Assembly (NCBI GenBank): GCA_022614805.1
Contig: JAKEHY010000038.1
Span: 186,001-250,000, forward strand
Length of the DNA: 64,000 nucleotides
DNA from: Candidatus Zixiibacteriota bacterium
GTDB taxonomy: Bacteria > Zixibacteria > MSB-5A5 > DSPP01
Reading direction: 5' to 3'
Shown one piece after another: positions 8,738 through 64,000 of this stretch. The position numbers and the translations under genes were made by a program. How positions within the stretch are numbered: the first letter of the stretch is position 1; every line of letters begins with the position of its first letter. The notes beneath the pieces are model-generated. The model had not been told where the DNA came from. It did no database searches and saw only the letters and a list, made by a program, of their open reading frames with translations.

Positions 8738-8783
8738 CTATTTGCAGAAATGCGCACGGCTTAAACTAAGCCGAACGGGATTC

Positions 8784-12967: not shown

Positions 12968-12975
12968 AGGAAAAC

Positions 12976-14919
12976 TTACTTGTGGACGATGGGGGTGGGG
13001 CTGGGAAGTTCCTGACCGGTCACCAGTTTATCGATTTCCTCGCCATCCAGCGATTCGTGCTCCAGGAGGGCTTTGGCCACGGTATGCAGCTTGTCCAGGT
13101 TTTTGGTCAACAGGTCGGTTGCCCTGGTTTCGGCTTTTTCCACGATGGAGCGGACCTCCTCGTCAATCAGCTGGGCGGTTTTTTCGGAGTAGTCCCGGTG
13201 GCGGGCGATTTCCCGCCCCAGAAAGATTTCCTCCTCCTTTTTTCCGAAAGTCAAAGGCCCGAGCCGGTCGGACATTCCCCACTCGCAGACCATCTTGCGG
13301 GCCAGCTCGGTGGCGCGCTCCAAATCGTTGCCGGCCCCGGTGGTCAACTGACTGAAGACCAGCTTTTCCGCCACCCGTCCGCCCATAAACTGCAAAAGGA
13401 CGGTGTCCAGGTAGGGGCGGGAGTAGGTGTGGCGTTCGTCAATCGGGAGGTAGTGGGTCAAACCCAAAGCCCGGCCGCGGGGAATGATGGTCACCTTGTG
13501 CACGGGGTCGGAGCCGGGGGTCAACTTGGCCATAAGGGCATGGCCGGCTTCGTGATAGGCGGTGATGCGCTTTTCCTCCGGCGAAATCACCAAACTCCTG
13601 CGTTCTATACCCATCATCACCTTGTCCTTGGCCTCCTCGAAATCGTTCATCGTCACCTTGTCGTGGTTGCGCCGGGCGGCCAGAAGGGCGGCTTCGTTGA
13701 CCAAGTTGGCCAAGTCGGCGCCGGATAGGCCGGGGGTGCCGCGGGCCAGAATCTCCAACGCCACGTCAGAGGCCAGCGGGATGCGGCGGGTGTGCACTTT
13801 CAAAATTCCTTCGCGGCCTTTCACGTCGGGGGCGTCCACCACCACCTGCCGGTCGAAGCGGCCGGGGCGCAAAAGGGCGGGGTCCAGAACGTCCGGGCGG
13901 TTGGTGGCGGCCATAATGATTACCCCCTCGTTGGACTCGAATCCGTCCATTTCCACCAATAGCTGGTTCAAAGTCTGCTCCCGCTCGTCGTGTCCGCCAC
14001 CCAGTCCGGCGCCGCGGTGGCGGCCGACGGCGTCCATTTCATCGATAAAAATGATACAGGGGGCGTTGCGTTTTCCCTGCTCGAATAAATCCCGCACGCG
14101 GGAGGCCCCCACGCCGACGAACATTTCAACGAAATCGGAGCCGGACATCGAAAAGAAGGGAACCCCCGCCTCCCCCGCCACGGCCCGGGCCAGAAGAGTT
14201 TTGCCGGTTCCGGGCGGGCCCAACAAGAGAACCCCCTTGGGAATTTTGCCGCCCAGTTTTTGAAACTTGGCCGGCTCGCGCAAAAACTCGATGATTTCGT
14301 GCAACTCTTCCTTGGCCTCATCCGCCCCGGCCACGTCGGCGAAGGTGACTTTCGGCTTTTCCTGATTGGCGAGCCGGGCTCGGCTTTTGCCGAAGGAGAA
14401 AAGCCCCTTGGGGCCGGACTGCATCTGCCGGAACATAAAGACCCAGAACAGAATCAAGAGAATCCAGGGCAAAGTCGAGAGAAGTATCGTCCCCCAGTTC
14501 AGGTTTTCCGATTGGGCGTACACTTCCGCTTTGTGGCTGCGGAGCCGTTCCAACAGCTGTGGGTCTTCGAAAGGAATGTAGAGCTGAAAACGGCCGTAGT
14601 TTCCCGAGCGGCCAGAGTTGGCGTCGGTGCGGGTGATTTTCTCCTTGAATTCCCCTTTTATCGTTTTTTCGTAAAAGGTGGCTTTTTTGACGTTTTCCTT
14701 ATCGACTTCGGCGATGAAATCGGAGTAGGAGATGTTCCAGACATCCTTTCCCTCCGGGGAGAAGAAGCGCCAGGCGAAGATGGCCAGAAGCAAAAGGACG
14801 ACCCAGAAGGCGGCCGCTTTTCCCCCCCGTTTCCAGCCCGGTTCTTCCTTCAAGACCGGCGGCAGCCGCCGCCGGCCGTCCGGGCCGGGGCCTTCTTTTC
14901 TCTCGTCTTTTTCGCTCAT
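12976..14919 (-). CDS. ftsH: ATP-dependent zinc metalloprotease FtsH
   Basis: Hexameric membrane-anchored AAA+ protease that degrades misfolded membrane and regulatory proteins. The 647-residue protein has TM1 at about 36-52, a roughly 90-residue periplasmic domain, and TM2 at about 144-163. It then has Walker A GPPGTGKT (about 234-241), Walker [12 protein letters not shown], the SRH region [20 protein letters not shown], and the zinc site [10 protein letters not shown]. The length is typical. It lies between hpt (35-base gap) and folP (8-base gap). Nothing unusual in the catalytic residues. Confidence 0.97.
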
Positions 14920-48626: not shown

Positions 48627-49751
48627 ATGGGACACGCATACACACCCGGACTTAAAGTAACCGACCATCTGGTCATAACCAAAAAGCGGATTTTGCCGCT
48701 CAAAGGAGAGGTTTTAGTCAAAGCGGGCGATTCCGTCGCACCGGACACGGTGGTGGCGCAGACGCACTTGCCCGGGCCGGTGGAACCGGTAAACGTGGCC
48801 AATATCCTGGGGCTGGCTCCCGCCGACGTGCCGGCCCATATGCTCAAAAAAGCGGGGGAGGCGGTGCAGGCAGGGGAGGTCATCGCCACAGCTAAAAGTT
48901 TTTTCGGGCTATTCAAATCGGAGTGTAAATCGAAAATAAACGGCATGATTGAAAACATCTCTTCGGTCACCGGCCAGGTGCTTTTGCGGGGGGAGCCGAT
49001 GCCGGTGGAGGTGAAAGCCTACCTGCCGGGAGAAGTGGTGGAGGTCTTTCCGAAAGAAGGGGTGGCCATCCGCGCTGCCGGAGCTTTTGTGCAGGGGATT
49101 TTTGGCATCTCGGGCGAAACGCACGGGGAACTGAAGGTGGTGGTGCCGGACCGAAAAACGGTTTTGACCGACAACTTCATCGATTCGACCTGCGTCGGAA
49201 AAGTCATTGTGGGGGGCTCGCTGGTCACCGCCTCTGCTTTGCGCAAGGCGATTTCCGTTGGGGCCGCGGCAGTGGTGGTCGGTGGCTTTGACGACAAAGA
49301 CTTGCGGGACTTTCTGGGCTACGATTTGGGGGTGGCCATTACCGGCTCGGAGGAGATAGGGATTACACTGGTGGTAACGGAAGGATTCGGGCAGATTGAT
49401 ATGGCCGAGAAAACCTTTGACCTGCTCAAACATTTCGAAGGGAAACTGGCTTTGGCCAACGGCGCCACCCAGATTCGGGCCGGGGTCATCCGACCGGAGG
49501 TCATCATCCCGCTCGAACAGAAAGTGGAGAGAATAAAGGAAGAACAGTTCGAGCAGGAGGGGCTTTCGGTCGGCTCGCCGGTGCGGGTCATCCGCTCCCC
49601 TTATTTCGGCCGTTTGGGAAAAGTGTCCGGTTTGCCCGTGCAGCTGCAGAAGCTGGAATCGGAATCCCACGCCCGGGTTCTGGAAGTGGAGTTTGAGGAT
49701 GGCCGCCGGGCCATCGTCCCCCGCGCCAACGTGGAGATGATAGAAAGTTAG
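48627..49751 (+). CDS. Conserved protein with barrel-sandwich hybrid and KOW-like domains
   Basis: A 374-residue soluble protein. The N-terminal part (about 20-130) is a barrel-sandwich hybrid of the type seen in RnfC/NqrA and lipoyl carriers (LPLKGEVLVKAGDSVAPDT, then VLLRGEPMPVEVKAYLPGEV). A central alpha/beta region follows (VIVGGSLVTASALRKAISVGAAAVVVG). The C-terminal roughly 70 residues resemble a KOW/SH3-like barrel (GSPVRVIRSPYFGRLGKVSGLPV). No catalytic residues are evident. I do not recognise a named family. It sits 228 bases upstream of the eight-gene membrane operon and points the same way, so it may be its soluble accessory. Confidence 0.6.
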   Translation: MGHAYTPGLKVTDHLVITKKRILPLKGEVLVKAGDSVAPDTVVAQTHLPGPVEPVNVANILGLAPADVPAHMLKKAGEAVQAGEVIATAKSFFGLFKSECKSKINGMIENISSVTGQVLLRGEPMPVEVKAYLPGEVVEVFPKEGVAIRAAGAFVQGIFGISGETHGELKVVVPDRKTVLTDNFIDSTCVGKVIVGGSLVTASALRKAISVGAAAVVVGGFDDKDLRDFLGYDLGVAITGSEEIGITLVVTEGFGQIDMAEKTFDLLKHFEGKLALANGATQIRAGVIRPEVIIPLEQKVERIKEEQFEQEGLSVGSPVRVIRSPYFGRLGKVSGLPVQLQKLESESHARVLEVEFEDGRRAIVPRANVEMIES

Positions 49752-49803: not shown

Positions 49804-49832
49804 TTGACAGCCAACGGGTTGGCCGATATTTT
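49804..49832 (+). promoter_or_regulatory. Consensus promoter of the eight-gene membrane operon
   Basis: TTGACA (49804-49809), 17-base spacer, TATTTT (49827-49832). The spacer contains the inverted repeat GCCAAC-GG-GTTGGC (49810-49823), a possible operator. This is the best -35/-10 match in the window. Confidence 0.8.
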
Positions 49833-49839
49833 CTGAATT

Positions 49840-49976
49840 CTAAAATGAGGCACCGCTGGGGAGGCGTTTGAGACAGAAGCGGGGTTGTCGGTTCGAGCTT
49901 TCGCCCCACGAAAGCAGTCGTTTGAGCCGGAAGGATTGAACCAGTCGCCACCTGATACAGGTGGTTTTTCTTTTTT
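49840..49976 (+). ncRNA. Structured leader RNA upstream of the membrane operon
   Basis: About 137 bases from the predicted start site to the terminator. Visible elements: GCTTTCG-CCCCA-CGAAAGC (near 49900-49925; the CCCCA loop could pair with TGGGG at about 49857, forming a pseudoknot), GGTTC/GAACC bracketing it, and CCGGAAGG with a GGAA tetraloop. No known riboswitch class or SRP/6S RNA was matched. It ends in the attenuator-like terminator at 49948-49976. It could be a cis-acting riboswitch or a short stand-alone RNA. Confidence 0.5.
49948..49976 (+). terminator. Attenuator-like terminator before the first start codon
   Basis: Stem CCACCTG/CAGGTGG (49948-49954, 49958-49964) with a three-base loop and T-rich tail (TTTTTCTTTTTT, to 49976), ending four bases before the ATG at 49980. 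The only purine-rich stretch that could act as a ribosome-binding site, AGGTGG, is in the 3-prime arm, so termination and translation initiation would both depend on opening it. Confidence 0.8.
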
Positions 49977-49979
49977 GGG

Positions 49980-51158
49980 ATGAAAGTCAAAACGGGCGTT
50001 TTAGGAATCGGACTGATTTTACTGCTTGCTGCGGGTGCAGTGGGGCAGTGGCTTTTGCCGCCTTTGGAGGTAGGTGCAAAAGATGCACCCAACGATGCCG
50101 GCAAAAGCCTTTTGGTTCTCTGGAAACTCTCCCCATCCGACACCAAAGGAGATAAAGCGGTCGAGGGGTACCAAATTTTACGGGCCCGTTCTGCGGAAGG
50201 GCCATTCGAGCCGGTCGGGACGGCGGCCAAGGGTGATACCCTTTTCACCGACCACGTGCCTCAAAATGGAACGGATTACTATTACAAGGTTCGGGCGTTG
50301 GGGCCGGAGGGCGTTTTTGCCGAATCAGAAACCAGCGGGCCGGCCCAGTCGAAGGCGCAGTGGTTCAACACCGAGCGGGTGAACGCGCTTCTTGCGGTGG
50401 TCATCCTGGTTTCGTCGATTTTGTACTTCGTATATAAAGCCCAATCCGGAAGGGAACTTTACATCCGCAAAATCGCCGGGCTGGAAGAGGTGGACAATGC
50501 CGTGGGGCGGGCGACGGAAATGGGGAAAAAAATAGTTTTCTGCCCCGGCCGGCTGGATATGGACAATGTCCAGACCATTGCCGCCGTTCTCATTTTGGGC
50601 CGCGTAGCGAAGCTGGCCGCCGAGTACGACACCAAACTGGAGGTTCCAAACGTCTATTCGATGGTGATGGTGAGTTGCCGGGAAGTGGTCAAAGAAGCGT
50701 TTTTGAAAGCGGGAAAACCGGATGCGTACCGCGAGGACGACATCCACTACATCACCCAAGACCAGTTTGGATACGCGGCGGCGGTGGACGGAATCATGAT
50801 GCGGGATAAACCGGCGGCGGTTTTTTACCAGGGGGCGTTTTTCGCCGAATCGCTCCTCTTTGCCGAGACCGGCAACTCCATCGGAGCCATTCAAATCGCC
50901 GGGACGGCCCAGCCGGCCCAACTGCCGTTTTTTGTGGTGGCCTGCGACTATACCTTAATCGGCGAGGAGCTTTTTGCCGCTTCCGCTTATTTGTCCAAAG
51001 AGCCGCGCCTTTTGGGTTCGCTCAAGGGACAAGATGTGGGAAAAGTCTTCACGATGGCGGCCATTTCCTTGGGCGTGCTTCTGGCGACTTTGCAAACACT
51101 CGGGCTTTTCCCGCGTGAATGGGTGGCGGCTTTCGCCAATCTCTTTCTGGTGCGATGA
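49980..51158 (+). CDS. Cassette 1, protein A: FN3, TM and cytosolic domain protein
   Basis: A 392-residue protein with an N-terminal signal/TM (about 5-24) and an extracytoplasmic fibronectin type III-like domain (about 45-125; VEGYQILRARSAEGPFEP... YYYKVRALG). A TM follows (about 137-156), then a 190-residue cytosolic domain and a final TM (about 355-375). The cytosolic part carries conserved blocks: GRATEMG, VVACDYTLIGEEL, FAASAYLSKEP and KGQDVGKV. It resembles proteins annotated DUF6754, a family without known function. Its start codon is 4 bases after the leader terminator. It overlaps the next gene by TGATG. The paralog in cassette 2 is at 53432. Confidence 0.75.
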   Translation: MKVKTGVLGIGLILLLAAGAVGQWLLPPLEVGAKDAPNDAGKSLLVLWKLSPSDTKGDKAVEGYQILRARSAEGPFEPVGTAAKGDTLFTDHVPQNGTDYYYKVRALGPEGVFAESETSGPAQSKAQWFNTERVNALLAVVILVSSILYFVYKAQSGRELYIRKIAGLEEVDNAVGRATEMGKKIVFCPGRLDMDNVQTIAAVLILGRVAKLAAEYDTKLEVPNVYSMVMVSCREVVKEAFLKAGKPDAYREDDIHYITQDQFGYAAAVDGIMMRDKPAAVFYQGAFFAESLLFAETGNSIGAIQIAGTAQPAQLPFFVVACDYTLIGEELFAASAYLSKEPRLLGSLKGQDVGKVFTMAAISLGVLLATLQTLGLFPREWVAAFANLFLVR

Positions 51159-51853
51159 TGCGGCGCGAAATTCCCCTCTTTATAACCAGCGTGGTCGGCT
51201 TTATTTTCGTCATCCGCTTTTTCATACCGCACGAGCCGTTCTATTCGCTGGAAGACGTCTCCTCCTCCTGGATACAGGTTATTCAGGCGTTCGCCATCTG
51301 GCTGGGGATTTTGAACCTCTTGAAAGTCTCGTTAGACAAAATTTATAAAAAAGAAAGGGGATGGGGGTATTCCGGCGTCATCATCTTTTCCTTTCTGGCC
51401 ATCTCCATTGCCGGATTTTTCTTTCCCCTGTGGGAAGAGCGGCCGGCCGGATACAGCTATTTGCAGCATGCCCGCGAGTTTTTGAAGCCGGGAACGTCGT
51501 TCGACTGGTTTTACTGGTACGTTTATTCCCCCCTCTCCTCCACGATGTTTGCCACTCTGGCTTTCTTTATCGCTTCGGCTTCCTTCCGGGCTTTCCGGGC
51601 CCGCAGTTTTCAGGCCACGCTTTTGCTTCTGTCCGGTTTTGTTGTGATGTTTGGGAGCGTGCCGGTCGGGAACGTGCTTTTCGGCTGGCTGCCGGCGGGG
51701 TGGCAGGTTTCCGACATCGCTGACTGGGTGCGGAACGTTCCTCAAGTGGCGGGCCAGCGGGCGATTCAAATCGGCATCGCCTTGGGAATCATTTCCACTT
51801 CGCTCCGGCTCATTTTGGGCCTGGAGCGGGCGCACCTTGGAAGGGAAGAATGA
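51158..51853 (+). CDS. Cassette 1, protein B: polytopic membrane protein
   Basis: A 231-residue protein with about five to six TMs and no periplasmic domain. Landmark motifs shared with the cassette 2 paralog are RxEIPL at the N-terminus, FFxPHE near residues 22-27, STMFATLAFFIASASFRAFRA in the middle and GLERAxLG at the end. The start at 51158 (MRREIPL) follows the A stop by the TGATG overlap; an ATG three bases earlier is also possible. Function is unknown. In such a module it is probably a channel or membrane subunit that complexes with proteins A, C and D. Confidence 0.7.
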   Translation: MRREIPLFITSVVGFIFVIRFFIPHEPFYSLEDVSSSWIQVIQAFAIWLGILNLLKVSLDKIYKKERGWGYSGVIIFSFLAISIAGFFFPLWEERPAGYSYLQHAREFLKPGTSFDWFYWYVYSPLSSTMFATLAFFIASASFRAFRARSFQATLLLLSGFVVMFGSVPVGNVLFGWLPAGWQVSDIADWVRNVPQVAGQRAIQIGIALGIISTSLRLILGLERAHLGREE

Positions 51854-52722
51854 GCCAGCCCAACCCTTCTGCACCCACATTGGGTCCGGGCTTCTGGGAA
51901 AAGTTCGCCCTTCTGGACCGGCGCATCATCTTCGCTTTTATATTTCTGGGTTTGGCCCTGCCGCTTTTTTACACCATCCGCCAACCCATCCCCGTTTCGC
52001 CGGAGGGGCGGGCCTATTATCAGTCGATTGAGAATCTGCCGGCCGGGTCGAAGGTGCTGCTCTCCTTTGACTACGACCCGCCTTCTTCGCCGGAGCTCCA
52101 GCCGATGGCCGAAGCAACCTTCAAACAGCTTTTCACCAAAAACTGCAAGTTGGTGGTCATCGGCCTTTGGCCCCAGGGGCCTCAACAGGCGGAGCAGGCC
52201 TTGGCAACCGCTTTGCGCGACCCGCGCTTTAAGGACAAGAAGTTGGAATACGGGGTGAATTACGCCAATTTGGGATATATGGCCGGGAACGAAATCGTGA
52301 TTCAAAAAATGAACGCTGACATCATTTCCACCTTCCCGTCCGATTATAAAGGGAACGCCACCGCCTCCCTGCCGATTATGCGGGGAGTCAGAAACTACAA
52401 GAACTTCGATTTTATCATCAACTTTTCTTCCGGTTTTGTCGGAACGCGGGAATGGGTGCAGTTCTGCGTGGACCGCTCCGGGGCCAAAATGATTGCCGGC
52501 AACACGGCCGTGCAGGCGCCGGAAAATTACCCGTATTTCCGCAGCGGTCAGCTAAAGGGGCTTTTGGCCGGAATGAAAGGGGCGGCCGAGTATGAAACGG
52601 TCGCCGGTCAGCCGGGGAAGGGGATTTCGTTTATGGGTTCGCAGTCGGTGGCCCACCTTGTCGTCATCCTTTTCGTGATATTAGGGAACATCGCCTACTT
52701 CGTTTCCCGGAGGAAATGGTGA
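51850..52722 (+). CDS. Cassette 1, protein C: two TMs with extracytoplasmic domain
   Basis: A 290-residue protein with an N-terminal TM (IIFAFIFLGLALPLFYTI, about 27-44), a roughly 210-residue domain and a C-terminal TM (SVAHLVVILFVILGNIAYFV). Positive charges at both ends (DRR, SRRKW) place the domain outside the cytoplasm. Shared blocks with the cassette 2 paralog include SPELQPMAEATF/IPEVQPMAHAFL, LPIMRG/LPMMRG and SGQL...GLKGAAEYE. The domain is of unknown fold. It starts with the ATGA overlap at the B stop. Confidence 0.7.
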   Translation: MSQPNPSAPTLGPGFWEKFALLDRRIIFAFIFLGLALPLFYTIRQPIPVSPEGRAYYQSIENLPAGSKVLLSFDYDPPSSPELQPMAEATFKQLFTKNCKLVVIGLWPQGPQQAEQALATALRDPRFKDKKLEYGVNYANLGYMAGNEIVIQKMNADIISTFPSDYKGNATASLPIMRGVRNYKNFDFIINFSSGFVGTREWVQFCVDRSGAKMIAGNTAVQAPENYPYFRSGQLKGLLAGMKGAAEYETVAGQPGKGISFMGSQSVAHLVVILFVILGNIAYFVSRRKW

Positions 52723-53432
52723 TGCCGGGTATGGTTTCCTTGACGCTGGCCGGCTTTCTTACCCTCGGAATTATGTCCTTCGTTTACAAGGACAACCCGA
52801 TTTACAAGTTCTGCGAATCGATTTTCATCGGCGTTTCGGCGGGATACTATTTCGTTTTGATTTTCTACCAGAGTTTACTGCCGCAATTGACCGATAAAAT
52901 CGGCCTTACTGGCGCGCTGACGGATTCCGCTCTGGCTTATTACCGCCAGAGCGGCAGCCTGGCTTCGGTGCAGTGGTTCAACCTGATTGCGGCAGTTTTG
53001 GGGATGATGATGCTTATGCGCCTTTTGCCGAAAATCGGCTGGATTTCCCGCTGGCCTTTGGCTTTTGTCATCGGCTCCATAGCCGGGCTTAAGCTTATCG
53101 GCGAGCTGCAGACCAACATTATGACGCAGATTCAGAAGTCCATTCTGCCTTTGTGGGCCCCGCAGTACGTCGACGGCAGCTTGAGTCTGGCCGCCTCCAT
53201 CGGCCAATCCCTCACCAACATCGTTCTGGTGGGGGGGATTCTGACCGGCGTCATTTACTTCTTTTTCTCCAAGGAACATAAAGGGGTTTTCGGGGGGGCG
53301 GCCAGAGTCGGCATCTGGTTTTTAATGGTCACCTTTGGGGCGGCCTTCGGGTTAACCGTTATGTCCCGTATGTCATTGCTCATTGCGCGTATTGACTTTT
53401 TGCTCCGGGATTGGTTACATTTGCTCGGCTGA
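52722..53432 (+). CDS. Cassette 1, protein D: polytopic membrane protein
   Basis: A 236-residue hydrophobic protein with about six TMs. Recognisable blocks, also in the cassette 2 paralog, are YKDNPIYKF near residue 23, GVSAGYYF, FFFSKEHKGVFGG near residue 185 and a terminal RIDFLLRDW. The start at 52722 gives MPGMVSL, following the C stop by TGATG; an upstream ATG at 52716 or GTG at 52719 is possible. Its stop overlaps the start of the second protein A by TGATG, so the two cassettes form one coupled operon. No transporter family was recognised. Confidence 0.7.
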   Translation: MPGMVSLTLAGFLTLGIMSFVYKDNPIYKFCESIFIGVSAGYYFVLIFYQSLLPQLTDKIGLTGALTDSALAYYRQSGSLASVQWFNLIAAVLGMMMLMRLLPKIGWISRWPLAFVIGSIAGLKLIGELQTNIMTQIQKSILPLWAPQYVDGSLSLAASIGQSLTNIVLVGGILTGVIYFFFSKEHKGVFGGAARVGIWFLMVTFGAAFGLTVMSRMSLLIARIDFLLRDWLHLLG

Positions 53433-54610
53433 TGCGAAAACCACTTATACTCTTCCCGCTGGTTTTCCTTTTTTTATTTGTTTTCGCATCGGCCCAAACC
53501 CCGCCCACGCCGGTTGACAGCCTCCAGGCTGTCGATACGCCCGACGATGCCGGAGGCCAGGTCGACTTAACTTGGAAACCCTCGCCGGATGAAGGACGGG
53601 CCGTCAGCCCGGTCATCGGCTATCAAATTCTGGCCGCGCCCGCGGCCGATTCCACTTTCGTTCCGATTGGCACCGCCTCGGCCGGGGCCACATCGGTCAC
53701 CGCCAAAGACAGGTTGGAAAATGGCCGGCCGTATTACTTCAAAATCCGCGCCTACGCGATGGACAGCAGCTATGCGGAATCGGAGGTGGCCGGCCCCGTG
53801 GTTCCAAAAGGTTCCTGGTGGAACACCAAACCGGCCTACCTTCGGATTGTTATCTGGATGGTTTTTGTAGTCGGTTTTATTCTCTACAATATCCGGAAGG
53901 CGGGAAAAAAAGAGCTCTACATTCGTCCCATCGCCGGCATTGACGCCATCGACGAAGGGATTGGGCGCGCCACCGAAATGGGGCGGCCGATTCTTTTTAT
54001 CTGCGGGCTGGGGGATGCTGCCCAAGCGGCCACCCTGGCCGCTTTTTCCGTTCTGGGTCGGGTGGCCCAGAAAACCGCACAGTACCAAACCCGATTAATT
54101 GTTCCCTGCTACGAACCGATTGTGTTCACCATCTGTCAGGACATCGTCAAGGGGGCTTATCTTAATGCCGGGCGGCCGGAGGCGTATAATGAGAAGGACG
54201 TTTTCTTTGTTGTCTACGACCAATTTCCGTATGTGGCGGCGGTGAACGGCATTATGCTGCGGGAAAAGCCGGCCACCAATTTTTACCTGGGGCAATTTTA
54301 CGCCGAGTCGTTGATGCTGGCGGAGACCGGCTTTGAGGCCGGTTCCATTCAAATCGCCGGCACCGACCAGCTCATCCAGATGTCGTTTTTCATCGTGGCC
54401 TGTGATTTTACCCTTATCGGCGAGGAGCTTTTTGCCGCTTCGGCCTATCTCTCCAAAGAGCCGGAACAGGTCGGCTCCATCAAAGGGCAGGACTGGGGGA
54501 AGGTGATTTTCGCCGGGCTTTCCATTTTGGGGGTCGTATCGGTTCTTTTGGATGAGAACCTTCGGGTTCACTTTTTCGGGTTTTTCCGGAAACTTATGTT
54601 AAACGAGTGA
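53432..54610 (+). CDS. Cassette 2, protein A: FN3, TM and cytosolic domain protein
   Basis: A 392-residue paralog of 49980-51158. It has a signal peptide (MRKPLILFPLVFLFLFVFAS), an FN3-like domain (about 40-115), a TM (about 128-147), a cytosolic domain (GRATEMG, ACDFTLIGEEL, FAASAYLSKEP, KGQDWGKV) and a C-terminal TM (about 360-378). Both proteins keep the same domain order and length, but most surface residues differ, indicating an old duplication with subfunctionalisation. It is coupled to the D1 stop. Confidence 0.75.
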   Translation: MRKPLILFPLVFLFLFVFASAQTPPTPVDSLQAVDTPDDAGGQVDLTWKPSPDEGRAVSPVIGYQILAAPAADSTFVPIGTASAGATSVTAKDRLENGRPYYFKIRAYAMDSSYAESEVAGPVVPKGSWWNTKPAYLRIVIWMVFVVGFILYNIRKAGKKELYIRPIAGIDAIDEGIGRATEMGRPILFICGLGDAAQAATLAAFSVLGRVAQKTAQYQTRLIVPCYEPIVFTICQDIVKGAYLNAGRPEAYNEKDVFFVVYDQFPYVAAVNGIMLREKPATNFYLGQFYAESLMLAETGFEAGSIQIAGTDQLIQMSFFIVACDFTLIGEELFAASAYLSKEPEQVGSIKGQDWGKVIFAGLSILGVVSVLLDENLRVHFFGFFRKLMLNE

Positions 54611-54614
54611 GCAG

Positions 54615-55277
54615 ATGAGAAAAGAAATTCCTCTGGTCATAATGGTAGCCTGCGGCGTTTTTATGGCCATACAGTTTTTCGTTCCTCACGAACTGCCGGC
54701 TTTAATTTATCAAAACCTCAACAAAACCGTGCAGGTGGTGGGAGCGGTGGCTTTGGTATTGGGAATCGTTTCGCTTTTGTCCCTGCATTTCGCCAAAATC
54801 AACCGCCGCCAGCCAGGGTATGGCTACAGCTACATCCTAATCGCCTTTTTCTTTATGATGGCGGCTTCTGGATTTTTGCCGGCCAAAGTCAACTTGGGGT
54901 CCTTCTTGGGAACGGGGGACCGGGTGGAAGGTTCTTTTTACCTCAATTTGTATAACTACGTATTGACCCCCGTGCAGGCGACCATGTTCGCGCTTTTGGC
55001 TTTTTTCATCGCTTCGGCTGCTTTCCGGGCCTTCCGGGCGCGCAGCGTGATCGCCACCCTTTTGCTTTTGACCGCCATTATCGTGATGATTGGTCGAGTG
55101 CCTATCGGCCCGTTTGTTTTGGGAGACTGGATTTCCGATTTGGCCGACTGGATAATGGCGGTGCCGAACGCCGCCGCCAAGCGGGCCGTGATCGTCGGCG
55201 TCGGGTTGGGCATTCTCTCCCTGTCGCTCAAGATGGTACTGGGCATTGAGCGGGCTTGGCTGGGAGGGGGGCGGTGA
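54615..55277 (+). CDS. Cassette 2, protein B: polytopic membrane protein
   Basis: A 220-residue paralog of 51158-51853, with RKEIPL at the start, FFVPHE, ATMFALLAFFIASAAFRAFRA and GIERAWLG at the end. It has about five TMs. A GTGAGCAG stretch lies between the A2 stop and the ATG, so it is not overlap-coupled but separated by four bases. It is slightly shorter than its cassette 1 partner, mainly in a loop around residues 80-100. Confidence 0.7.
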   Translation: MRKEIPLVIMVACGVFMAIQFFVPHELPALIYQNLNKTVQVVGAVALVLGIVSLLSLHFAKINRRQPGYGYSYILIAFFFMMAASGFLPAKVNLGSFLGTGDRVEGSFYLNLYNYVLTPVQATMFALLAFFIASAAFRAFRARSVIATLLLLTAIIVMIGRVPIGPFVLGDWISDLADWIMAVPNAAAKRAVIVGVGLGILSLSLKMVLGIERAWLGGGR

Positions 55278-56104
55278 AGGAATTTTTCCAAAAGCTTTTG
55301 AAAATCGACCGGCGCTGGATTTTTTTGATTACCGGTGTTGCCATCGTCATTCCCTTCTTCTTTTTCATCGGGCTGCCCATCAAGGCCACCCGGGAAGTGC
55401 GGGCTTTATATGATGCCGTTGAGGCGTTGAAGCCCGGTGACGTGGTCTTTTACGCCCCGGAATACGACCCGGCCACCATCCCGGAGGTGCAGCCGATGGC
55501 GCACGCTTTTTTGCGCCAGGTTTTCCGGAAAAACGTCCGTGTGGTCGCTACCGGCCTTTTCCAACTGGGAGTGGCCCTGGCGGAGCAGGATTTGACCCTT
55601 ATGGCCAAGGAGATGGGGAAAAAGTACGGAGAGGATTATGTTTTTTTGGGATACAAACCCTATCCGGAACAGGTGATTTTGAATATGGGGGAGGATTTCC
55701 GCAAATCGTTTCCCACCGACTACTACGGCAACGACGTGAATGCCTTGCCGATGATGCGCGGGCTTAAAAACTACTCCGATACCAAGATGATTGTTTCGAT
55801 GACCGCCGTCTCCGGCGCCGATTACTGGATTCGTTCGGCCCACGGCCGCTACAATATTCCACTCGCTTTGGGGGTCACCGCCGTTATGGCGACCGATTAC
55901 TACACCTATTACCAGTCCGGCCAGCTTTTTGCCCTGATGGGGGGATTGAAAGGGGCGGCGGAATACGAGCAGATGGTCGGCATCAAGGGAAAGGCGGCCA
56001 AGGCGACTTTGCGGATGGACATCCAATCGTTTGCCCATCTGGCCATCATCATTTTGGTGATTCTGGGCAATTTGGCCTATTTTGCCACACGGGAGAAAAA
56101 GTAG
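55274..56104 (+). CDS. Cassette 2, protein C: two TMs with extracytoplasmic domain
   Basis: A 276-residue paralog of 51850-52722. The start is a GTG (VKEFFQKLLKIDRRW) that overlaps the B2 stop as GTGA; the in-frame ATG at 55256 would overlap B2 further. It has an N-terminal TM (about 15-35), an extracytoplasmic domain and a C-terminal TM (FAHLAIIILVILGNLAYFA). The IPEVQPMAHAFL, LPMMRGLKNY and GGLKGAAEYE blocks are shared. The domain's overall layout matches C1. Confidence 0.7.
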   Translation: MKEFFQKLLKIDRRWIFLITGVAIVIPFFFFIGLPIKATREVRALYDAVEALKPGDVVFYAPEYDPATIPEVQPMAHAFLRQVFRKNVRVVATGLFQLGVALAEQDLTLMAKEMGKKYGEDYVFLGYKPYPEQVILNMGEDFRKSFPTDYYGNDVNALPMMRGLKNYSDTKMIVSMTAVSGADYWIRSAHGRYNIPLALGVTAVMATDYYTYYQSGQLFALMGGLKGAAEYEQMVGIKGKAAKATLRMDIQSFAHLAIIILVILGNLAYFATREKK

Positions 56105-56105
56105 T

Positions 56106-56789
56106 ATGCCGGAAGTCTCTTACGTGCAGGTGATTTGGACGACGTTGGCGGTCTTTTTCACCCTGTTTATTTTTTCCTTTTTGTACAAGGATAATCCGCT
56201 GTACAAAATCGCCGAGCACGTGGTGGTGGGGGTTTCCAACGGCTACTGGATGATTCTGCTTTTCCGCGACACCTTCAAGCCGCTCTGGCTGGATCCGGCC
56301 TGGAATTTGGTTTCGGGGAAAGGGTTGAGCGCCGAACTCACCATTTTCGTTCTGGTGAATCTGGTTTTCTCCGTTTTTATGCTGCTGCGGCTGGTGGGGG
56401 GGAACGCGGCTTTGCTTTCCCGCTGGGCGATGGCGGTCGTTTTGGGGGTTTCTGCCGGGGTTTTAATCCCCCTTTCCGTGCAGACCTATATGTATGAACA
56501 ATTAAAGGGGAACGTTTTGACCTTTGGTGCCTTTCCCTTTCCCTTCGTCTCCGTCGTCAGCCAAACGGCTTTCAACAATCTGCTCATCATTGTCGGCTCC
56601 CTTTCGGGGCTGGCGTACTTTTTCTTTTCCAAAGAGCACAAAGGAGTCTTTGGGGGGACGGCGAAACTGGGGATTTGGTTTTTGATGATTGGATTTGGCG
56701 CCACCTTCGGCTACACAGTGATGGGACGGCTTTCGCTTTTAATCGGGCGGATTGAGTTTTTGAGGGACTGGCTTAATATGATTTTCTAA
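56106..56789 (+). CDS. Cassette 2, protein D: polytopic membrane protein
   Basis: A 227-residue paralog of 52722-53432, with FLYKDNPLYKI, GVSNGYWM, FFFSKEHKGVFGG and a final RIEFLRDW. About six TMs. It begins one base after the C2 stop (56104). It closes the operon, which ends at the terminator at 56806-56838. The shared FFFSKEHKGVFGG core between two otherwise diverged copies is the best family signature for the D component. Confidence 0.7.
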   Translation: MPEVSYVQVIWTTLAVFFTLFIFSFLYKDNPLYKIAEHVVVGVSNGYWMILLFRDTFKPLWLDPAWNLVSGKGLSAELTIFVLVNLVFSVFMLLRLVGGNAALLSRWAMAVVLGVSAGVLIPLSVQTYMYEQLKGNVLTFGAFPFPFVSVVSQTAFNNLLIIVGSLSGLAYFFFSKEHKGVFGGTAKLGIWFLMIGFGATFGYTVMGRLSLLIGRIEFLRDWLNMIF

Positions 56790-56805
56790 AATTTCGTCAA
56801 AGCTA

Positions 56806-56838
56806 AAAGCCCCTCCGCCTTTGCGGAGGGGCTTTTTT
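56806..56838 (+). terminator. Strong terminator of the membrane operon
   Basis: A 13-base perfect stem, AAAGCCCCTCCGC/GCGGAGGGGCTTT (56806-56818, 56823-56835), with a CTTT loop and T-run to 56838. It closes a roughly 7-kb transcription unit. Confidence 0.95.
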
Positions 56839-56896: not shown

Positions 56897-59800
56897 TCAC
56901 TGACAGGAAGTCAGGCAGAGGGGGCAGACCAGAGAGGGGTTTACCCCTCCCGGTGCGTTAAAGGTGCCGTTGATTACCGTCACGATGTCCGAGCCGGAGA
57001 GATATCCATCCCCGTTCACGTCGGCCACACATTTTGGCACCAATTGGCCGGACATTACATCCACCTGATTGAAAATGTAACCCACTTCGGCCACGATGTC
57101 GGCCCCCGAAAGGGCCCGGTCATAGTTCAGGTCTCCCCGCAAATGGGGCACAAGGGGGGCACTTCCGGCCTGCTCGGCAGAATGGTCCCAGAACCATTTG
57201 ACCGCCCTTTGGGCATTGCCGATAAGTCCGGACAGACCGGTGATGCTGCCGATGTGGATGACCGAATAGCTTTCTCCTGAACCCCGGAAGAAGGTATCGA
57301 CGGAAGCGGCCAGACTGCCGAGGCCGTAGCGCGCTACCGCTTCGCGGGCGGCGAGATTGACCGGGAAGTTATAGACCTTCTTGGCGATGGTCATATACCC
57401 CATATCCGCCCGATAGGCCTTCCCGGAAGCACATCGGGGACAGTTGTCTACTGGACAGCAGGGGCAGGTGAGAGAATCGCTGGCCGGGTCGTCGGTGCTG
57501 TGGAAGCCGGTGACGTTCCAACTCCAATGCTGTGCCTTCGATTCACCGATGAAGTAGGAGTAGCATTCAAGGTCGGAATAGAAGCTGACTTGGCGATACA
57601 CCACCGCAAGCCGCGGCTCCACCGTATCACCCCCCGGAGGGAGAGAAAGCGGGTCGGGAATGACGATAAAGCCATACAACTGGGAATTTGGCGTGCAGGT
57701 GTCCACCAGCACGTCGTTGCCGGCGATATAGCCGAGGTGGTAGTAGCGGCCATCGGCCCCTAAAATAATACTGTCACCCCCCACGTTGCGGAACGGATGA
57801 GAAATGTCAGAGTAGACGTCGATGTCATACAGCACTCCCATTGCCACGCTGTCGAGGCTGTTCTCGCTGGCGTTAATCGCCCTTACGTTCTGAACCAGCC
57901 AGTCGGAGGAATCCGGGTGGGTGGACTGCTCCCAGAGATTCAACCAGATAAGCGAGCTGTCCCCCACGTCGGTGGCGACCGAGCGCATCCACAGGTTATA
58001 GCCGCCGGTGGTGGGGACCGAATCCAATTCACCGTCGGCGATGCAGCGCAGGAAGTCATCGCCAAAAATCTGGCGTGTGACCTTTCGCGGGCCGCCATAA
58101 CATTCGCCGCCGTTCAGAGAGGAGTTGGCGATGAGGACGCCACCGTCGTAGAAGCGGTTGCTCTCGTTGGAGGCACCTGCGTTGTAGAGCAACCCAGCGG
58201 TGCCGGCTTGGTCGCCGATGGAGCCCTGGGTGCCGATATCGGTGACGTTGTTGCCGGAATGGATGCGTATCCGCCGATTCAGGCAATAGCTGGTCATAAC
58301 GTTAACGCTGGCCGCAATCAGTGCAACTGCTTGATTGTTTGGCGGAGTCACCGAAGGGTCGTTGGTGCGGCAATAGGCGCGTATGAGGCCACTGCGGTTG
58401 CCTGCGTCAAGAACCCCCACATCCGAAGCATCAAATATAACGCTGATGTGAATAAAGCTGCCCACGTCGATGAACTCCACAGGAGTGTATGTAAAAGTTA
58501 CCCTGAACCGGCCCGGGCCGTACCCTTCATCCAGCGAGGGGTCGGCCACCAGACTGTCGAGAAAGAACCCCACCATCCCGATGTTTTGCAAGCGCATTGT
58601 GACAGTGTGCCAACCACGCGGCGGTATCACCATCGAGGTCAAATCGGTGGTGTCTCCGGTTGTCAGGAGCAACTCCGGGCGCAGGAATGGCACCACTGGC
58701 CGGGCTGGGGCTTTGTAGAGCCTAATCTTGTTCAAGAGCATCTCAAATGAGCCGGGATCGGTGGCGATGCCGCTCTCGTAGGCCGCCTGCCGGATGCCCG
58801 GCTTCGGTCTGGTTATAGAGAGTATCCAGATGGTGTCGTTGACGACCTCCGGATAGGCCGCAAAGTAGTCTTCGTGTATGCAAGGGTCGGCGCTCGTTCC
58901 AGCGCAGCCCGGGTTTTTGGTATCGGTCAGGTTGACCGGATTGTCCCAGGCAATTCCGCCGTTGTTTGAAGCCGAGTAGTAGATGTCAAAGTTAGCCAAA
59001 AGCCCGGCCCACGGGTCGTCCCACTGGAAGGTGGGGTTGCCGGCGACATCGTACTCTTCTCTCGGTTGGGACCAGATGGCATACAGGGTGCTGGTCGCCG
59101 GATTATATGACAGGCCGAGGCCGGAACCCCAGGGCCCTTGGGCAAAGCCGAAGAGCGTAGTGGAACGGTCGGGGAGGCGGCCGTCAATGTTGATATTGGC
59201 GATTTTGTGCGGGCCGGAGACGGAACCATCCGCCGCAACCGAGGTGTGATGGACGTGTCCGCCAGGGCCGGGGAAGCCTTGGCCATTGTAGTTGTTCCAA
59301 TCAGTCCATATTACGTGAAGAGTGGTGCCAACCATTACTGCTTGAACCTGATGCGGAATGGCCTGAAAGGCGGGGAGTTCAAAATAGCCGGCGATATCAG
59401 TCAACAGGCCAAAGCTGATAGCCCCGGTGGCCGGATTATAAGTTCCTTTGAGGTAGACCGGGCGCTCAGTCCCCCAGCATTCAACCGGTTGAGGTGGGCA
59501 GCCAACCCCTACGAGATAGAAAACGTCCCCGCCATTGGCGGCAATCTCGACCGCGTTCCACCAAGAGGTAACCATAGGGCTGACTATCGGGGCTGTCCAA
59601 GTCAAACCCCGGTCGGTGGAGTAGTTGAAATAGACTTTATTCGGGTCTTCCCCGTCATAGGTCGCCACCCAGACCGACTCGTTTATCGCCCGCATCACCG
59701 GGTCGGTGTTTGGGATTGTGCACGCTTCCGGACACTGATTAGTTGTGTCCATATAAAACAGCCCAGCGCATTCAGAGCTGTCCCGGATGAGACCGATACC

Positions 59801-60520
59801 TTGGAAACGCCAGATGTAGGCACCCAAATCGGTTCTCTGGATGTAGCGGTTGCCGTAAACAATGGTAGTCTGCGTAGGGGAAGCGAAGTTCAAAACACCA
59901 CCCCCCCAGCCTAACTCCCGGGGGCGGTCATCCGGCGCAAGCTCGGGGAAGACGTGACTCATTCGGATACCCGGAGGGGAATGGTCGAGCATACCGCTGC
60001 CGCCGCAGTTGTAGGAATTGTAGAAGAGGGGGGTTCGGCTCTGAAGCGAGTCGGCGGTCGTGCCGCTCCACGGACTTGTATTAAAACCGGTGTATATCGG
60101 ATAAGCCATATGCACCTGGGCATTGCCGCCCACCAGATGCACGGAGATGGCATCGCGCATATAGTTGTTGGTTTGGGGAAATTCCACCGTTCCGGTCTGG
60201 ACATCGATAAAAGGAACGGTCGTGGCCCCGATTCGGCTGGGGGCCAGACTGCGGTATTCCGGCTCCTCGGCATCCCCCGGGAGCAGCAGGGAGATGGAGG
60301 AACTGGGAACAGGATTGCGGTCGGGACCGTACCGAACCGGATTGGCCGGTATCGGCCGTGCAGTTGCCGGTTGCTGGGCTTCCCCCAGCGTACCCGTGTT
60401 CCCCGGCACTGGGGGCTTTTGGTCTTTCGGCAGAGGGAAGGCCGAAAACGGGGGGAGCCAGAAAATGACAAATAGAAACAGGGCTAAAAGGAGGGAATAT
60501 TTCTCTTTAGAAGTCTGCAC
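56897..60520 (-). CDS. Secreted protein with BNR/Asp-box motifs and dockerin-like tail, copy 1
   Basis: The start is taken as a GTG at 60520 (MQTSKEKYSLL), where AAAGGAG is 8 bases upstream; the longer frame to 60562 lacks a site. The 1207-residue protein has a signal peptide (LLALFLFVIFWLPPFSAFP). It has several BNR/Asp-box-like motifs (STDRGLTW, SNNGGIAWD) in a propeller-like N-terminal half. A C-terminal dockerin-type pair with calcium-loop sequences (LRGDLNYDRALSGADIV, VADVNGDGYLSGSDIV) ends in a CPLCLTSCQ tail. Dockerin-like tails attach secreted enzymes or adhesins to surface scaffolds; whether this one has enzymatic activity is unknown. A tandem paralog follows upstream on the same strand. 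Confidence 0.8.
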   Translation of the reverse strand: MQTSKEKYSLLLALFLFVIFWLPPFSAFPLPKDQKPPVPGNTGTLGEAQQPATARPIPANPVRYGPDRNPVPSSSISLLLPGDAEEPEYRSLAPSRIGATTVPFIDVQTGTVEFPQTNNYMRDAISVHLVGGNAQVHMAYPIYTGFNTSPWSGTTADSLQSRTPLFYNSYNCGGSGMLDHSPPGIRMSHVFPELAPDDRPRELGWGGGVLNFASPTQTTIVYGNRYIQRTDLGAYIWRFQGIGLIRDSSECAGLFYMDTTNQCPEACTIPNTDPVMRAINESVWVATYDGEDPNKVYFNYSTDRGLTWTAPIVSPMVTSWWNAVEIAANGGDVFYLVGVGCPPQPVECWGTERPVYLKGTYNPATGAISFGLLTDIAGYFELPAFQAIPHQVQAVMVGTTLHVIWTDWNNYNGQGFPGPGGHVHHTSVAADGSVSGPHKIANINIDGRLPDRSTTLFGFAQGPWGSGLGLSYNPATSTLYAIWSQPREEYDVAGNPTFQWDDPWAGLLANFDIYYSASNNGGIAWDNPVNLTDTKNPGCAGTSADPCIHEDYFAAYPEVVNDTIWILSITRPKPGIRQAAYESGIATDPGSFEMLLNKIRLYKAPARPVVPFLRPELLLTTGDTTDLTSMVIPPRGWHTVTMRLQNIGMVGFFLDSLVADPSLDEGYGPGRFRVTFTYTPVEFIDVGSFIHISVIFDASDVGVLDAGNRSGLIRAYCRTNDPSVTPPNNQAVALIAASVNVMTSYCLNRRIRIHSGNNVTDIGTQGSIGDQAGTAGLLYNAGASNESNRFYDGGVLIANSSLNGGECYGGPRKVTRQIFGDDFLRCIADGELDSVPTTGGYNLWMRSVATDVGDSSLIWLNLWEQSTHPDSSDWLVQNVRAINASENSLDSVAMGVLYDIDVYSDISHPFRNVGGDSIILGADGRYYHLGYIAGNDVLVDTCTPNSQLYGFIVIPDPLSLPPGGDTVEPRLAVVYRQVSFYSDLECYSYFIGESKAQHWSWNVTGFHSTDDPASDSLTCPCCPVDNCPRCASGKAYRADMGYMTIAKKVYNFPVNLAAREAVARYGLGSLAASVDTFFRGSGESYSVIHIGSITGLSGLIGNAQRAVKWFWDHSAEQAGSAPLVPHLRGDLNYDRALSGADIVAEVGYIFNQVDVMSGQLVPKCVADVNGDGYLSGSDIVTVINGTFNAPGGVNPSLVCPLCLTSCQ

Positions 60521-60662
60521 AACCAACACTCCTTTCGCCGGGCGGGGGGTGCCCGCTTGCAAAATATAATACGCAGCTAAAACCGGTTGTTAGTAATTCA
60601 CCTACACGGTTTCGAGAAGCCGGGATGGCGGCTTGTTTGAATTCCTTTTCAGTCCTCCCGAA

Positions 60663-63600
60663 TCACTGGCAGGAGGTCAGGCAGAGGGGGCAGGCCGGAG
60701 AGGGATTCACCCCTCCCGGAGCGTTGAAGGTGCCGTTGATTACCGTCACGATGTCCGCTCCAGAGAGGTTTCCATCCCCGTTCACGTCGGCCACGCATTT
60801 CGGAATCAAGGAACCAAACGGGTTATCCATGCCGTTGAAGATGTAGCCCAGTTCAGCCACAATGTCCGCTCCCGAAAGATTCCGGTCATCGTTCAGGTCC
60901 CCCCGCAGGCCGGTCTGGGAGCCGGTCGTTCCTACATGCTGACCGGCGTGGTTCCAGAACCAGGCAACGGCTTTTCTGGCGCTGTTGATGAGTCCGGACA
61001 AGCCGGTGATGCTGCCAATGTGGATGACGGAGTAGCTTTCTCCCGAACCTCTGAAAAAAGTATCGACGGAGGCGGCCAGACTGCCGAGGCCGTAACGTGC
61101 CACAGCTTCGCGGGCGCCGAGGTTGGTTGGGAAATTATATACTTTTTTGGCGATGGTCATATAATCCATATCCGCGCGCCACAAGCGACCGTCCGAACAG
61201 GTGTCGGCAAAGGCGTGGGATGTATTGAGGTCGTAGATAAGGCTGTCATCGCCCCGGTTCGGGTCGCGGATGCGGTTGGTTGGACTGTGGAAGCCGGTAA
61301 CGTTCCAACTCCAGCGCTGGGCCAAACTGTCGCCGCCGGAAGCGTTACAGTCGAGGTTGTAGGCAAAGGCGGTTCCTCGGTGAACCACCGCCAGGCGCGG
61401 CTCCACCGTATCGCCAAGCGGTGGCGCAGAAAGCGGGTCGGGGATGACAATAAAGCCGTAGAGCTGGGAATTGGGCGTGCAGGTGTCCACCAGCACGTCG
61501 TTGCCGGCTATCCAGCCCAAATGATAGGAGCGGCTATCCGCTCCCAAAATGATGGTATCGCCGCCGACGTTGCGGGCCGGCTGGGAGATGTTGGAAAAGA
61601 CGTCGATGTCATACAGCGCTCCCAATGCCACGCTGTCGATGCTGTTTTCACTGGCGTTAATCGCCCTTACGTTCTGAACCAGCCAGTCGGAGGAATCGGG
61701 ATGGGTGGATTGCTCCCAGAGGTTCAACCATATTAGCGAACTGTCCCCCACGTCGGTGGCCACCGAACGCATCCACAGGTTATAGCCGCCGGTGGTGGGA
61801 ACCGAATCCAGTTCCCCGTCGGCAATGCAGCGCAAAAAGTCATCGCCGAAAATCTGGCGGGTTATCCGGCGGGGGTTCGACTCGCAAAGCCCGGCGTCCA
61901 GTTCCGAATTGGCAATCCAGACCCCGCCATCGTAGAAGCGGTTGCTCGCATCGCTGGCGCCCGGATAGTACATCAACCCGGCTGTGCCGGCCTCGTCGGC
62001 AATGGAACCTTGGGTGCCGATATCGGTGACGTTGGTGGCGGAATGGATGCGTATCTGCTGGTTCAGGCAGTAGCTGGGCACAATGTTCACGCTGGCCGCC
62101 ACAAGCACAACTGCTTGGTTGTTGGGGGGAGGCACCGAAGGGTCGTCTGTGTGGACGTAAAGCTTTATAAGCCCGCTGCGGGTGCCGGCGTCAAGGACCC
62201 CCACTTCGGAAGCGTCGAACGTTAGGGTGAAATCATAGAAGCCGCCCAGCGGAACAAATTGGCCCGGATTGAGAGTGTGTGTCACCTGTAAAAGCCCCGG
62301 GCCAGCCCCTTCATTCAGCGAGGGGTCAACCACCAAACTGTCGAGAAAGACTCCCGCGGGGTTGCAGCTGATGTTGCCGAAACGCAAGTTTACGGTATGC
62401 GAGCCGCGCGGTGGAATTACAATCGAGCTCATGTTGGTAGTGTCCGGCGCTCTCACAAACAGGTCTGCACGGGCATCGCATTGAAGCGGCCGGGCTGGGG
62501 CTTTGTAGAGCCGAATCTTGTTCAGCATAATCTGCCACGAGCCGGGGTCAGGCGTCTGGCCTGTGGGCCAGACCACCTCGCGGAAGCCCGGCTTGGGCCG
62601 GGTTATGGAAAGTATCCAGATGGTGTCGTTGACCACCTCCGGGTAGGCCGCAAAGTAATCCTCGTGGATGCAGGGACTGGCGGCGGTTCCGGCACAACCG
62701 GGGTTTTTGGTATCGGTCAGGTTGAACGGGATATCCCAAGCAATCCCGCCATTGTTTGAAACCGCATAGTAAATGTCAAAGTTGGCCAAAAGACCGGCCC
62801 AGGGGTCATCCCACTGGTAGGTGGGAGCACCGTTTATGTCGTATTGTTCTCTCGGCTGGGACCAGATGGCATACAGAGCGTTGTTTGCCGAGTTATACGA
62901 TAGGCCGAGGCCTGCGCCCCAAGGGCCTTGGGCAAAGCCGAACAGGGTGCCGGAACGGTCGGGCAGACGACCGTCGATGTTGATATTGGCTATCTTGTGC
63001 GGGCCGGATACCGAGCCATCCACCGCCACGGAAGCATGCCAGACGCGGCCGCCCACGCCGGGAAAACCATTGCCATTGTAATTGTTCCAGTCCGTCCATA
63101 TCACGTGCAGAATGGTTCCCACCAATACTCCTTGGAGTTGGTGGGGAATAGGGAGATAGGCTGGCAGGGAAAAATCGCCGGTGATGTCCGTCATCGGCCC
63201 CAAAGTAATGGAACCGGAGACCGGGTTGTACGTCCCCTTCACGTAGCACGGGCGCTCGGTAAGCCAGAAGGTGCTCGGGTTAGCCGGATTGGACATCCCC
63301 GTCAGGTAAAAAACGTCCCCGCCGTCGGAGGCAATCTCGACGGCGTTCCACCAGGAGGTGGACATTGGGCTCACTATTGGCGTTGTCCAAGTCAAACCCC
63401 GGTCGGTGGTGTAGTTGAAATAAACCTTGTTCGGGTCTTCGCCGTCATAGGTCGCCACCCAGACTGACTCGTTTATCGCCCTTGCCACCGGGTCGGTATT
63501 GGGAATTGTATAGTTGCCGTTCATCAACGTGTCGGGGGGAATCATAGAAAACCGCCCGGCGCATTCGGCGCTGTCCCGGATTGTGCCGGTACCCCGGAAG

Positions 63601-64000
63601 GACCAAATGTAAGCACCCAAATCAGTGCGCTGGATTAAGCGGTTGCCGTAAACAATTGTAGTTTGCGTGGGTGACGCGAAGTTCAGAACCCCGCCGCCCC
63701 ACATCAAATCAGAGATGTAGCCGTCACCGGTCGTGTCGGAGAGCCGGATGCCCGGAGGGGGATGGTCGAGCATACCGCTGCCGCCGCAGTTGTAGGAATT
63801 GTAGAAGAGGGGTATTCTGCTCTGAAGCGAGTCGGCTGCCGTACCGGTCCATGGAGACGTATTGTTACCGGTGAATATCGGGTAGACCATATGCACTTGG
63901 GCATTGCCGCCCACCAGATGCACCGAATGCTCACGCATATAGTTGTTGGTATAGGGAAACTCCACCGTTCCGGTCTGGACATCGATAAAAGGAACGGTCG
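60663..64000 (-). CDS. Secreted protein with BNR/Asp-box motifs and dockerin-like tail, copy 2 (5-prime partial)
   Basis: The frame is open from 60663 to the window edge (1112 codons). It includes TVPFIDVQTGTVEF, which is identical to copy 1, so the start lies beyond 64000. It has the same order of BNR motifs and dockerin-like end (LRGDLNDDRNLSGADIV, VADVNGDGNLSGADIV, CPLCLTSCQ). Long blocks are identical to copy 1 even in DNA (for example around 57880-58070 and 61670-61860), with diverged blocks between. This indicates a tandem duplication with later local gene conversion. A cysteine-rich insert of copy 1 (CPCCPVDNCPRC) is replaced here. Confidence 0.8.
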   Translation of the reverse strand, partial: TVPFIDVQTGTVEFPYTNNYMREHSVHLVGGNAQVHMVYPIFTGNNTSPWTGTAADSLQSRIPLFYNSYNCGGSGMLDHPPPGIRLSDTTGDGYISDLMWGGGVLNFASPTQTTIVYGNRLIQRTDLGAYIWSFRGTGTIRDSAECAGRFSMIPPDTLMNGNYTIPNTDPVARAINESVWVATYDGEDPNKVYFNYTTDRGLTWTTPIVSPMSTSWWNAVEIASDGGDVFYLTGMSNPANPSTFWLTERPCYVKGTYNPVSGSITLGPMTDITGDFSLPAYLPIPHQLQGVLVGTILHVIWTDWNNYNGNGFPGVGGRVWHASVAVDGSVSGPHKIANINIDGRLPDRSGTLFGFAQGPWGAGLGLSYNSANNALYAIWSQPREQYDINGAPTYQWDDPWAGLLANFDIYYAVSNNGGIAWDIPFNLTDTKNPGCAGTAASPCIHEDYFAAYPEVVNDTIWILSITRPKPGFREVVWPTGQTPDPGSWQIMLNKIRLYKAPARPLQCDARADLFVRAPDTTNMSSIVIPPRGSHTVNLRFGNISCNPAGVFLDSLVVDPSLNEGAGPGLLQVTHTLNPGQFVPLGGFYDFTLTFDASEVGVLDAGTRSGLIKLYVHTDDPSVPPPNNQAVVLVAASVNIVPSYCLNQQIRIHSATNVTDIGTQGSIADEAGTAGLMYYPGASDASNRFYDGGVWIANSELDAGLCESNPRRITRQIFGDDFLRCIADGELDSVPTTGGYNLWMRSVATDVGDSSLIWLNLWEQSTHPDSSDWLVQNVRAINASENSIDSVALGALYDIDVFSNISQPARNVGGDTIILGADSRSYHLGWIAGNDVLVDTCTPNSQLYGFIVIPDPLSAPPLGDTVEPRLAVVHRGTAFAYNLDCNASGGDSLAQRWSWNVTGFHSPTNRIRDPNRGDDSLIYDLNTSHAFADTCSDGRLWRADMDYMTIAKKVYNFPTNLGAREAVARYGLGSLAASVDTFFRGSGESYSVIHIGSITGLSGLINSARKAVAWFWNHAGQHVGTTGSQTGLRGDLNDDRNLSGADIVAELGYIFNGMDNPFGSLIPKCVADVNGDGNLSGADIVTVINGTFNAPGGVNPSPACPLCLTSCQ

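Follow-up and report, generated by a model that had tools for sequence, protein, structure and literature searches.

Glutamate mutase is the known client of GlmL, a protein of the GlmL/MutL family (PF13941), whereas DUF6754 (PF20539) is a catalogued Pfam domain whose name carries no function. Relatives of both belong to the system described here, which was studied from a 64,000-nt stretch of DNA of a Candidatus Zixiibacteriota bacterium (assembly GCA_022614805.1, contig JAKEHY010000038.1, positions 186,001 to 250,000; hereafter the window). Its membrane part is encoded by four genes, A, B, C and D, of which A contains DUF6754 and which occur twice in the same order in one operon; its two predicted cytosolic partners are E, encoded directly upstream of the first cassette, and X, a GlmL-like protein encoded elsewhere in the same genome. 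A literature search returned no paper mentioning DUF6754, PF20539 or PF13941 and nothing useful on GlmL-like proteins of Chloroflexota. As far as the searches reach, the six-gene system (A-B-C-D-X-E) is therefore undescribed, in agreement with an initial annotation of the window that knew of no named system with this set, though the domain of A had already been catalogued. The membrane system is present in every searched species of one phylum, in almost all of a second and in about one fifth of a third. Such wide carriage, with several ancient paralogues per genome, leads us to expect a basic role for these cells; A-E have no known function, and concrete handles on it are offered by X, as an ASKHA ATPase, and by the constant order of the genes.

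The A-B-C-D quartet is kept together as one unit

The two cassettes form an uninterrupted run of eight genes on one strand (49980-56789), and the paired proteins are 50% (A), 49% (B), 41% (C) and 45% (D) identical over their aligned parts, far above chance. Short signature motifs are present in both copies of all four proteins. With each gene start taken as the most likely among several possible ones, a choice on which the overlaps depend, neighbouring genes overlap at A1-B1 (TGATG), B1-C1 (ATGA), D1-A2 (TGATG) and B2-C2 (GTGA), and A2 and B2 are separated by a 4-bp gap. The repeated gene order, the junctions and the shared signatures reported in the initial annotation were all recovered.

The distribution of A was surveyed in three phyla, namely the window's own, the one that holds WOR-3 and Stahlbacteria (the WOR-3 phylum), and Chloroflexota. 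DUF6754 was found in 132/132, 94/100 and 67/301 genomes, respectively, and almost every genome of the window's phylum has 2-6 copies; it was absent from all 14 control genomes, and neither the three individual Bacillota genomes nor the one Bacteroidota genome searched had it. The stretches fetched from the three phyla contain 232 complete quartets, up to four in a row, and the order is A-B-C-D in all of them, with B-C and C-D genes that often touch or overlap; homologues of the four proteins thus recur as neighbours and are not scattered. Loci were located via A, so that a lone B, C or D would escape this count; an independent search for D in Chloroflexota found it, nearly always once, in 70 genomes, 66 of which are among the 67 with A. 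Most incomplete runs are found at the ends of contigs or stretches, and a few further broken cassettes belong to long-read genomes with probable frame errors. Genuine departures comprise about nine A genes on their own, two A-A-B-C-D loci and one A-C-D. The A-B-C-D quartet is one unit that has been kept together.

The cassettes also diverged together, as the initial annotation had proposed to check. Across quartets the distances of the four proteins are correlated (r 0.70-0.92), and within genomes the actual partners match better than exchanged ones in 100-104 of the 104 pairs of cassettes (96-100%). In the joint tree the window's two cassettes fall into different classes, each joined by WOR-3 cassettes; they are therefore ancient paralogues, which parted before the window's phylum split from WOR-3. 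Recent tandem duplication was rejected, since each of the two clusters with members of its own class from other genomes and WOR-3 cassettes stand on both sides; a mobile-element origin was likewise rejected, as plasmids, phages and viral contigs yielded no relatives. Retention of partners since the cassettes separated is the pattern expected of a complex, although linkage alone could also preserve it. A-D probably form a physical complex, and the quartet was conserved as a unit after duplication; the earlier claim that this complex is obligate is too strong for A in view of the lone A genes and the A-A-B-C-D loci.

Several loci depart from the standard arrangement. In the two A-A-B-C-D loci (L131, 7467-11929; L195, ~12200-13372) one B-C-D set is common to two A genes, and in two genomes of the WOR-3 phylum (L198, 1167-6416; L200, 2040-7405) lone A genes are convergent with genes that by eye resemble TonB, ExbD and two ExbB. 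Genomes of the window's phylum typically carry an additional cassette elsewhere in which the FN3 domain is missing; in this third cassette of the window's genome (L054) a SnoaL-like 165-aa protein that starts with a transmembrane segment (TM) is inserted between B and C (8650-9144).

The partners X and E

X of the window's genome matches PF13941 with an E-value of 1.4e-130 and is homologous over the whole length of the family. It scores below the cut-offs for GlmL itself (237 bits vs 475 for NF040745 and 177 vs 204 for TIGR01319) and has about 130 residues of extra C-terminus relative to GlmL. Phosphate-1 (DCGSTTTK), phosphate-2 (DIGGATTD) and adenosine-like (GSGG) motifs can be read directly and in this order, by which X is, on motif evidence, a member of the ASKHA ATPase superfamily.

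The gene order of Chloroflexota is A-B-C-D-X-E, and X is present in 65 of the 67 Chloroflexota genomes with A (Fisher p 8e-32; X cut-off E 1e-10), with A and X within 12 kb of each other in 53/53 same-contig cases. X was also found in 123/132 genomes of the window's phylum, where it usually adjoins E on the same strand, and in 95/100 of the WOR-3 phylum; same-strand X-E neighbours were counted at 30 loci of the window's phylum and 16 of Chloroflexota. E directly precedes A1 in the window, and its homologues adjoin ABCD and X in relatives and in Chloroflexota. From this gene order and co-occurrence, X and E are very probably parts of the same system as ABCD, and the interval that the initial annotation took for the whole system was drawn too narrowly, as both lie outside it. 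X is mostly single-copy, whereas A usually has 2-6 copies; because of this difference a single ATP-dependent X-E unit acting on several ABCD modules is favoured.

X might instead serve glutamate mutase as GlmL does, its place beside ABCD being incidental. The strong family match, together with matches to the NCBIfam GlmL models, though below their cut-offs, would agree with such a role. However, the glutamate mutase E subunit (PF06368) is lacking in 125 of the 132 genomes of the window's phylum, among them the window's own, far more than the few that lack X, and for this reason X does not serve glutamate mutase here. With the unbroken A-X adjacency in Chloroflexota also against it, this explanation is largely refuted in the window's phylum and has become extremely improbable.

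E has a match to RnfC_N that remains below the cut-off (E=0.011; 16.1 bits vs 25.6), in addition to weak matches to the KOW domain of SPT5 and the sandwich domain of the RNA polymerase beta' subunit. A membrane-bound enzyme or Rnf-like redox complex, with E as its RnfC-like subunit, would account for the weak barrel-sandwich match and for the presence of the CODH epsilon subunit (Z ~9) among the Rossmann-like matches of the C domain (see below). Yet A-E contain no conserved Cys and no CxxC, haem or flavin motif, and B and D match no Rnf/Nqr family, so that a redox complex is very unlikely.

Two features were seen near these partners. In one family of the window's phylum a secreted, C-terminally anchored protein of ~250 aa (motif SFNGKFYFEYPENW) is encoded between X and E (L065, 14581-15351; L067, 1475-2290; L070, 3380-4120). 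In Chloroflexota (L108, L110 and other loci) C has a long N-terminal, probably cytosolic extension, bringing it to as much as 1480 aa in all, with repeated acidic DWLAGL-like motifs and, in some cases, zinc ribbons; this extension possibly provides docking sites for X or E.

Predicted topology and candidate functions

A1 (403 bits) and A2 (354 bits) are full members of DUF6754, the curated cut-off of which is 27 bits. No Pfam or NCBIfam match of B, C or D exceeded the cut-offs (the scan of B1 covered 51164-51850, i.e., the protein without its first two residues), and a sequence search of the PDB found no relatives for them and only FN3 domains for A. Searches for a MotA_ExbB domain in B or D gave no match up to E 10, and none of the eight window genes or E matched an ABC ATPase. 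The initial annotation had named strong matches of all four proteins to a described transporter or secretion complex as evidence that would speak against it; none were found.

The AlphaFold model of A2 consists of an N-terminal signal or TM, an FN3 domain (residues 30-136), a TM (141-166), a six-stranded alpha/beta domain and a further TM (351-384). Its FN3 domain matches solved FN3 domains with Z ~13, and such matches filled the hit lists of the fold search. In the C2 model a six-stranded alpha/beta domain stands between two TMs; it matches only generic Rossmann-like proteins, the best being 1kjn (Z 10.2 over 137 residues), with 3cf4_G at Z 9.2 and many unrelated Rossmann-like folds at Z 7-8 in this comparison with the CODH epsilon/MTH777 fold. 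B and D are polytopic by hydropathy, and the topologies first drawn for A-D agree with these models. Charges flanking the TMs place the domain of A in the cytosol and that of C outside. The FN3 and C domains are accordingly predicted to lie on the outer side of the membrane and the DUF6754 domain of A on the cytosolic side, as initially suggested. Strand and helix order agrees between the modelled alpha/beta domains of A and C, which suggests that they are related, on opposite faces of the membrane, but a profile comparison of the two gave a probability of 2.6% and no support for kinship. In Rossmann-like folds the ligand-binding site is formed by the stretches that follow the strands. Conserved residues are enriched just after strands in the domains of both A (p 0.03) and C (p 0.008), and control stretches have no such enrichment.

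The linkage of the genes, the families of their products and the predicted topology allow a mechanism to be proposed. The four membrane proteins would assemble into one inner-membrane complex that works with two cytosolic partners, E as an adaptor and X, a relative of GlmL, as an ATP-binding protein of the ASKHA type. Like other ASKHA proteins, X would alter its conformation with ATP and, by way of E and the DUF6754 domain, gate or energise the membrane part. A ligand would be selected or retained by the outward domains, and a molecule or a signal would thereby cross the membrane. Several ABCD modules with differing outer parts would share one X-E unit. The family of X, with its predicted ATPase activity, makes a role as energiser or switch somewhat more probable than other roles. 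That ABCD functions in transport, rather than in signalling or envelope assembly, is a guess that we offer tentatively.

Transmembrane signalling, in which the FN3 and C domains sense the outside and the DUF6754 domain relays to X and E as an ATP-dependent switch, would make use of alpha/beta domains with conserved strand-end residues on both membrane faces and of several paralogues with differing outer parts. Two polytopic proteins, B and D, exceed what sensing needs, however, and no output domain (kinase, cyclase or DNA-binding) was seen in the cluster; we consider signalling unlikely. An envelope assembly or export scaffold, in which ABCD carries or anchors surface polymers or proteins and X polymerises or cycles like the ASKHA proteins of the PilM/FtsA type, would fit the superfamily of X, the FN3 domains and a near-universal presence, as expected of a core envelope function. 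X matches MutL/GlmL and not PilM or FtsA, however, and its Chloroflexota homologues match MutL only; the occurrence in Chloroflexota means that there is no tie to the outer membrane, and no pilus or secretin gene was recognised in the segments scanned. A scaffold of this kind is therefore also unlikely.

Several observations weigh against a transport complex coupled to X and E. B and D have no known transporter fold or family in the Pfam, NCBIfam and PDB searches. X of the window's genome (G000:C1:167618) lies ~67 kb from E, X and E are not beside ABCD in most of the WOR-3 stretches read, two apparently complete genomes lack X, and the lone A genes occur apart from any quartet. Direct-coupling analysis between the subunits (230 quartets, effective number ~163; subunit pairs other than C-D) gave inter-protein scores no better than within-protein noise and had no power. 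Taken as a whole, the proposal of an ASKHA-ATPase-coupled inner-membrane complex, with a single X-E unit for several ABCD modules, has a little less than an even chance of being correct. A more specific proposal is doubtful. On this view a GlmL-like ASKHA ATPase, acting via a barrel-sandwich adaptor, would drive interchangeable membrane modules of four subunits each, with paired alpha/beta ligand-binding domains on opposite faces; such transport or secretion machines would form a new class, carried by all of one phylum and by nearly all of WOR-3. If X does drive transport, a new family would join the ABC, ExbBD and Sec-type motors in energy coupling.

Operon layout and comparison with known systems

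Table 1. Features of the A-B-C-D operon and its upstream neighbour, in window coordinates.
Feature	Coordinates	Strand	Description
E	48627-49748	+	374-aa predicted cytosolic protein with barrel-sandwich and KOW-like segments; upstream of cassette 1
Leader region	49804-49979	+	promoter-like site TTGACA-17-TATTTT, conserved leader, terminator-like hairpin (49947-49965)
A1	49980-51158	+	signal/TM, FN3-like domain, TM, predicted cytosolic DUF6754 domain, TM; PF20539 E=7e-121
B1	51158-51853	+	polytopic membrane protein; motif AFFIASASFRAFRAR; no Pfam/NCBIfam family
C1	51850-52722	+	TM, predicted external alpha/beta domain, TM; motif GMKGAAEYE; no family
D1	52716 or 52722 to 53432	+	polytopic membrane protein; motif FFFSKEHKGVFGG; no family
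A2	53432-54610	+	built as A1; PF20539 E=4e-106, fn3 E=0.001; AlphaFold predicted local distance difference test (pLDDT) 91.9
B2	54615-55277	+	polytopic membrane protein (hydropathy)
C2	55274-56104	+	TM, predicted external Rossmann-like alpha/beta domain, TM; AlphaFold pLDDT 94.0
D2	56106-56789	+	polytopic membrane protein (hydropathy)
Intrinsic terminator	56805-56836	+	end of operon; 14-bp stem, T run; strong

The interval between E and A1 contains a leader core (GAGGYACCGSTGGGGAGGCGTTTGAGA ... CTYTCGCCCCACGAAAGC) that is conserved in the one further genome searched from this genus (L055, 11540-11720, minus strand), although the gene upstream there is a different one; the terminator-like hairpin of the leader ends 15 nt before A1. 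The leader may be an attenuator, a riboswitch or a small RNA; an Rfam search assigned it to no family, and its predicted folding energy is no better than that of shuffled sequences. Downstream of the operon, the minus strand encodes a tandem pair of secreted paralogues, of 1221 aa (56897-60562) and at least 1100 aa (60663-63965), both with C-terminal dockerin-like GDVNGDG repeats.

Among described families, DUF6754 covers only the domain of A, and the B-C-D-X-E neighbourhood is in no family searched. X has the ASKHA motifs in common with GlmL/MutL proteins but differs from them in its scores against the NCBI models, its longer C-terminus, the usual lack of glutamate mutase and its linkage to a membrane quartet. 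The Rnf complex resembles the system in the barrel-sandwich segment of E, a weak likeness, and differs from it in that no Fe-S or flavin sites and no relatives of RnfA/D/E/G were seen in the A-E system. PilMNO and FtsA-type systems likewise pair an ASKHA protein with membrane proteins bearing external domains, but X is GlmL-like, and none of A-D matches a PilN, PilO or Fts family. With ECF-type transporters the likeness is one of proposed logic only, in that one shared energiser would serve several substrate modules; no ABC ATPases and no ECF T component were recognised here, and the putative energiser would be an ASKHA protein.

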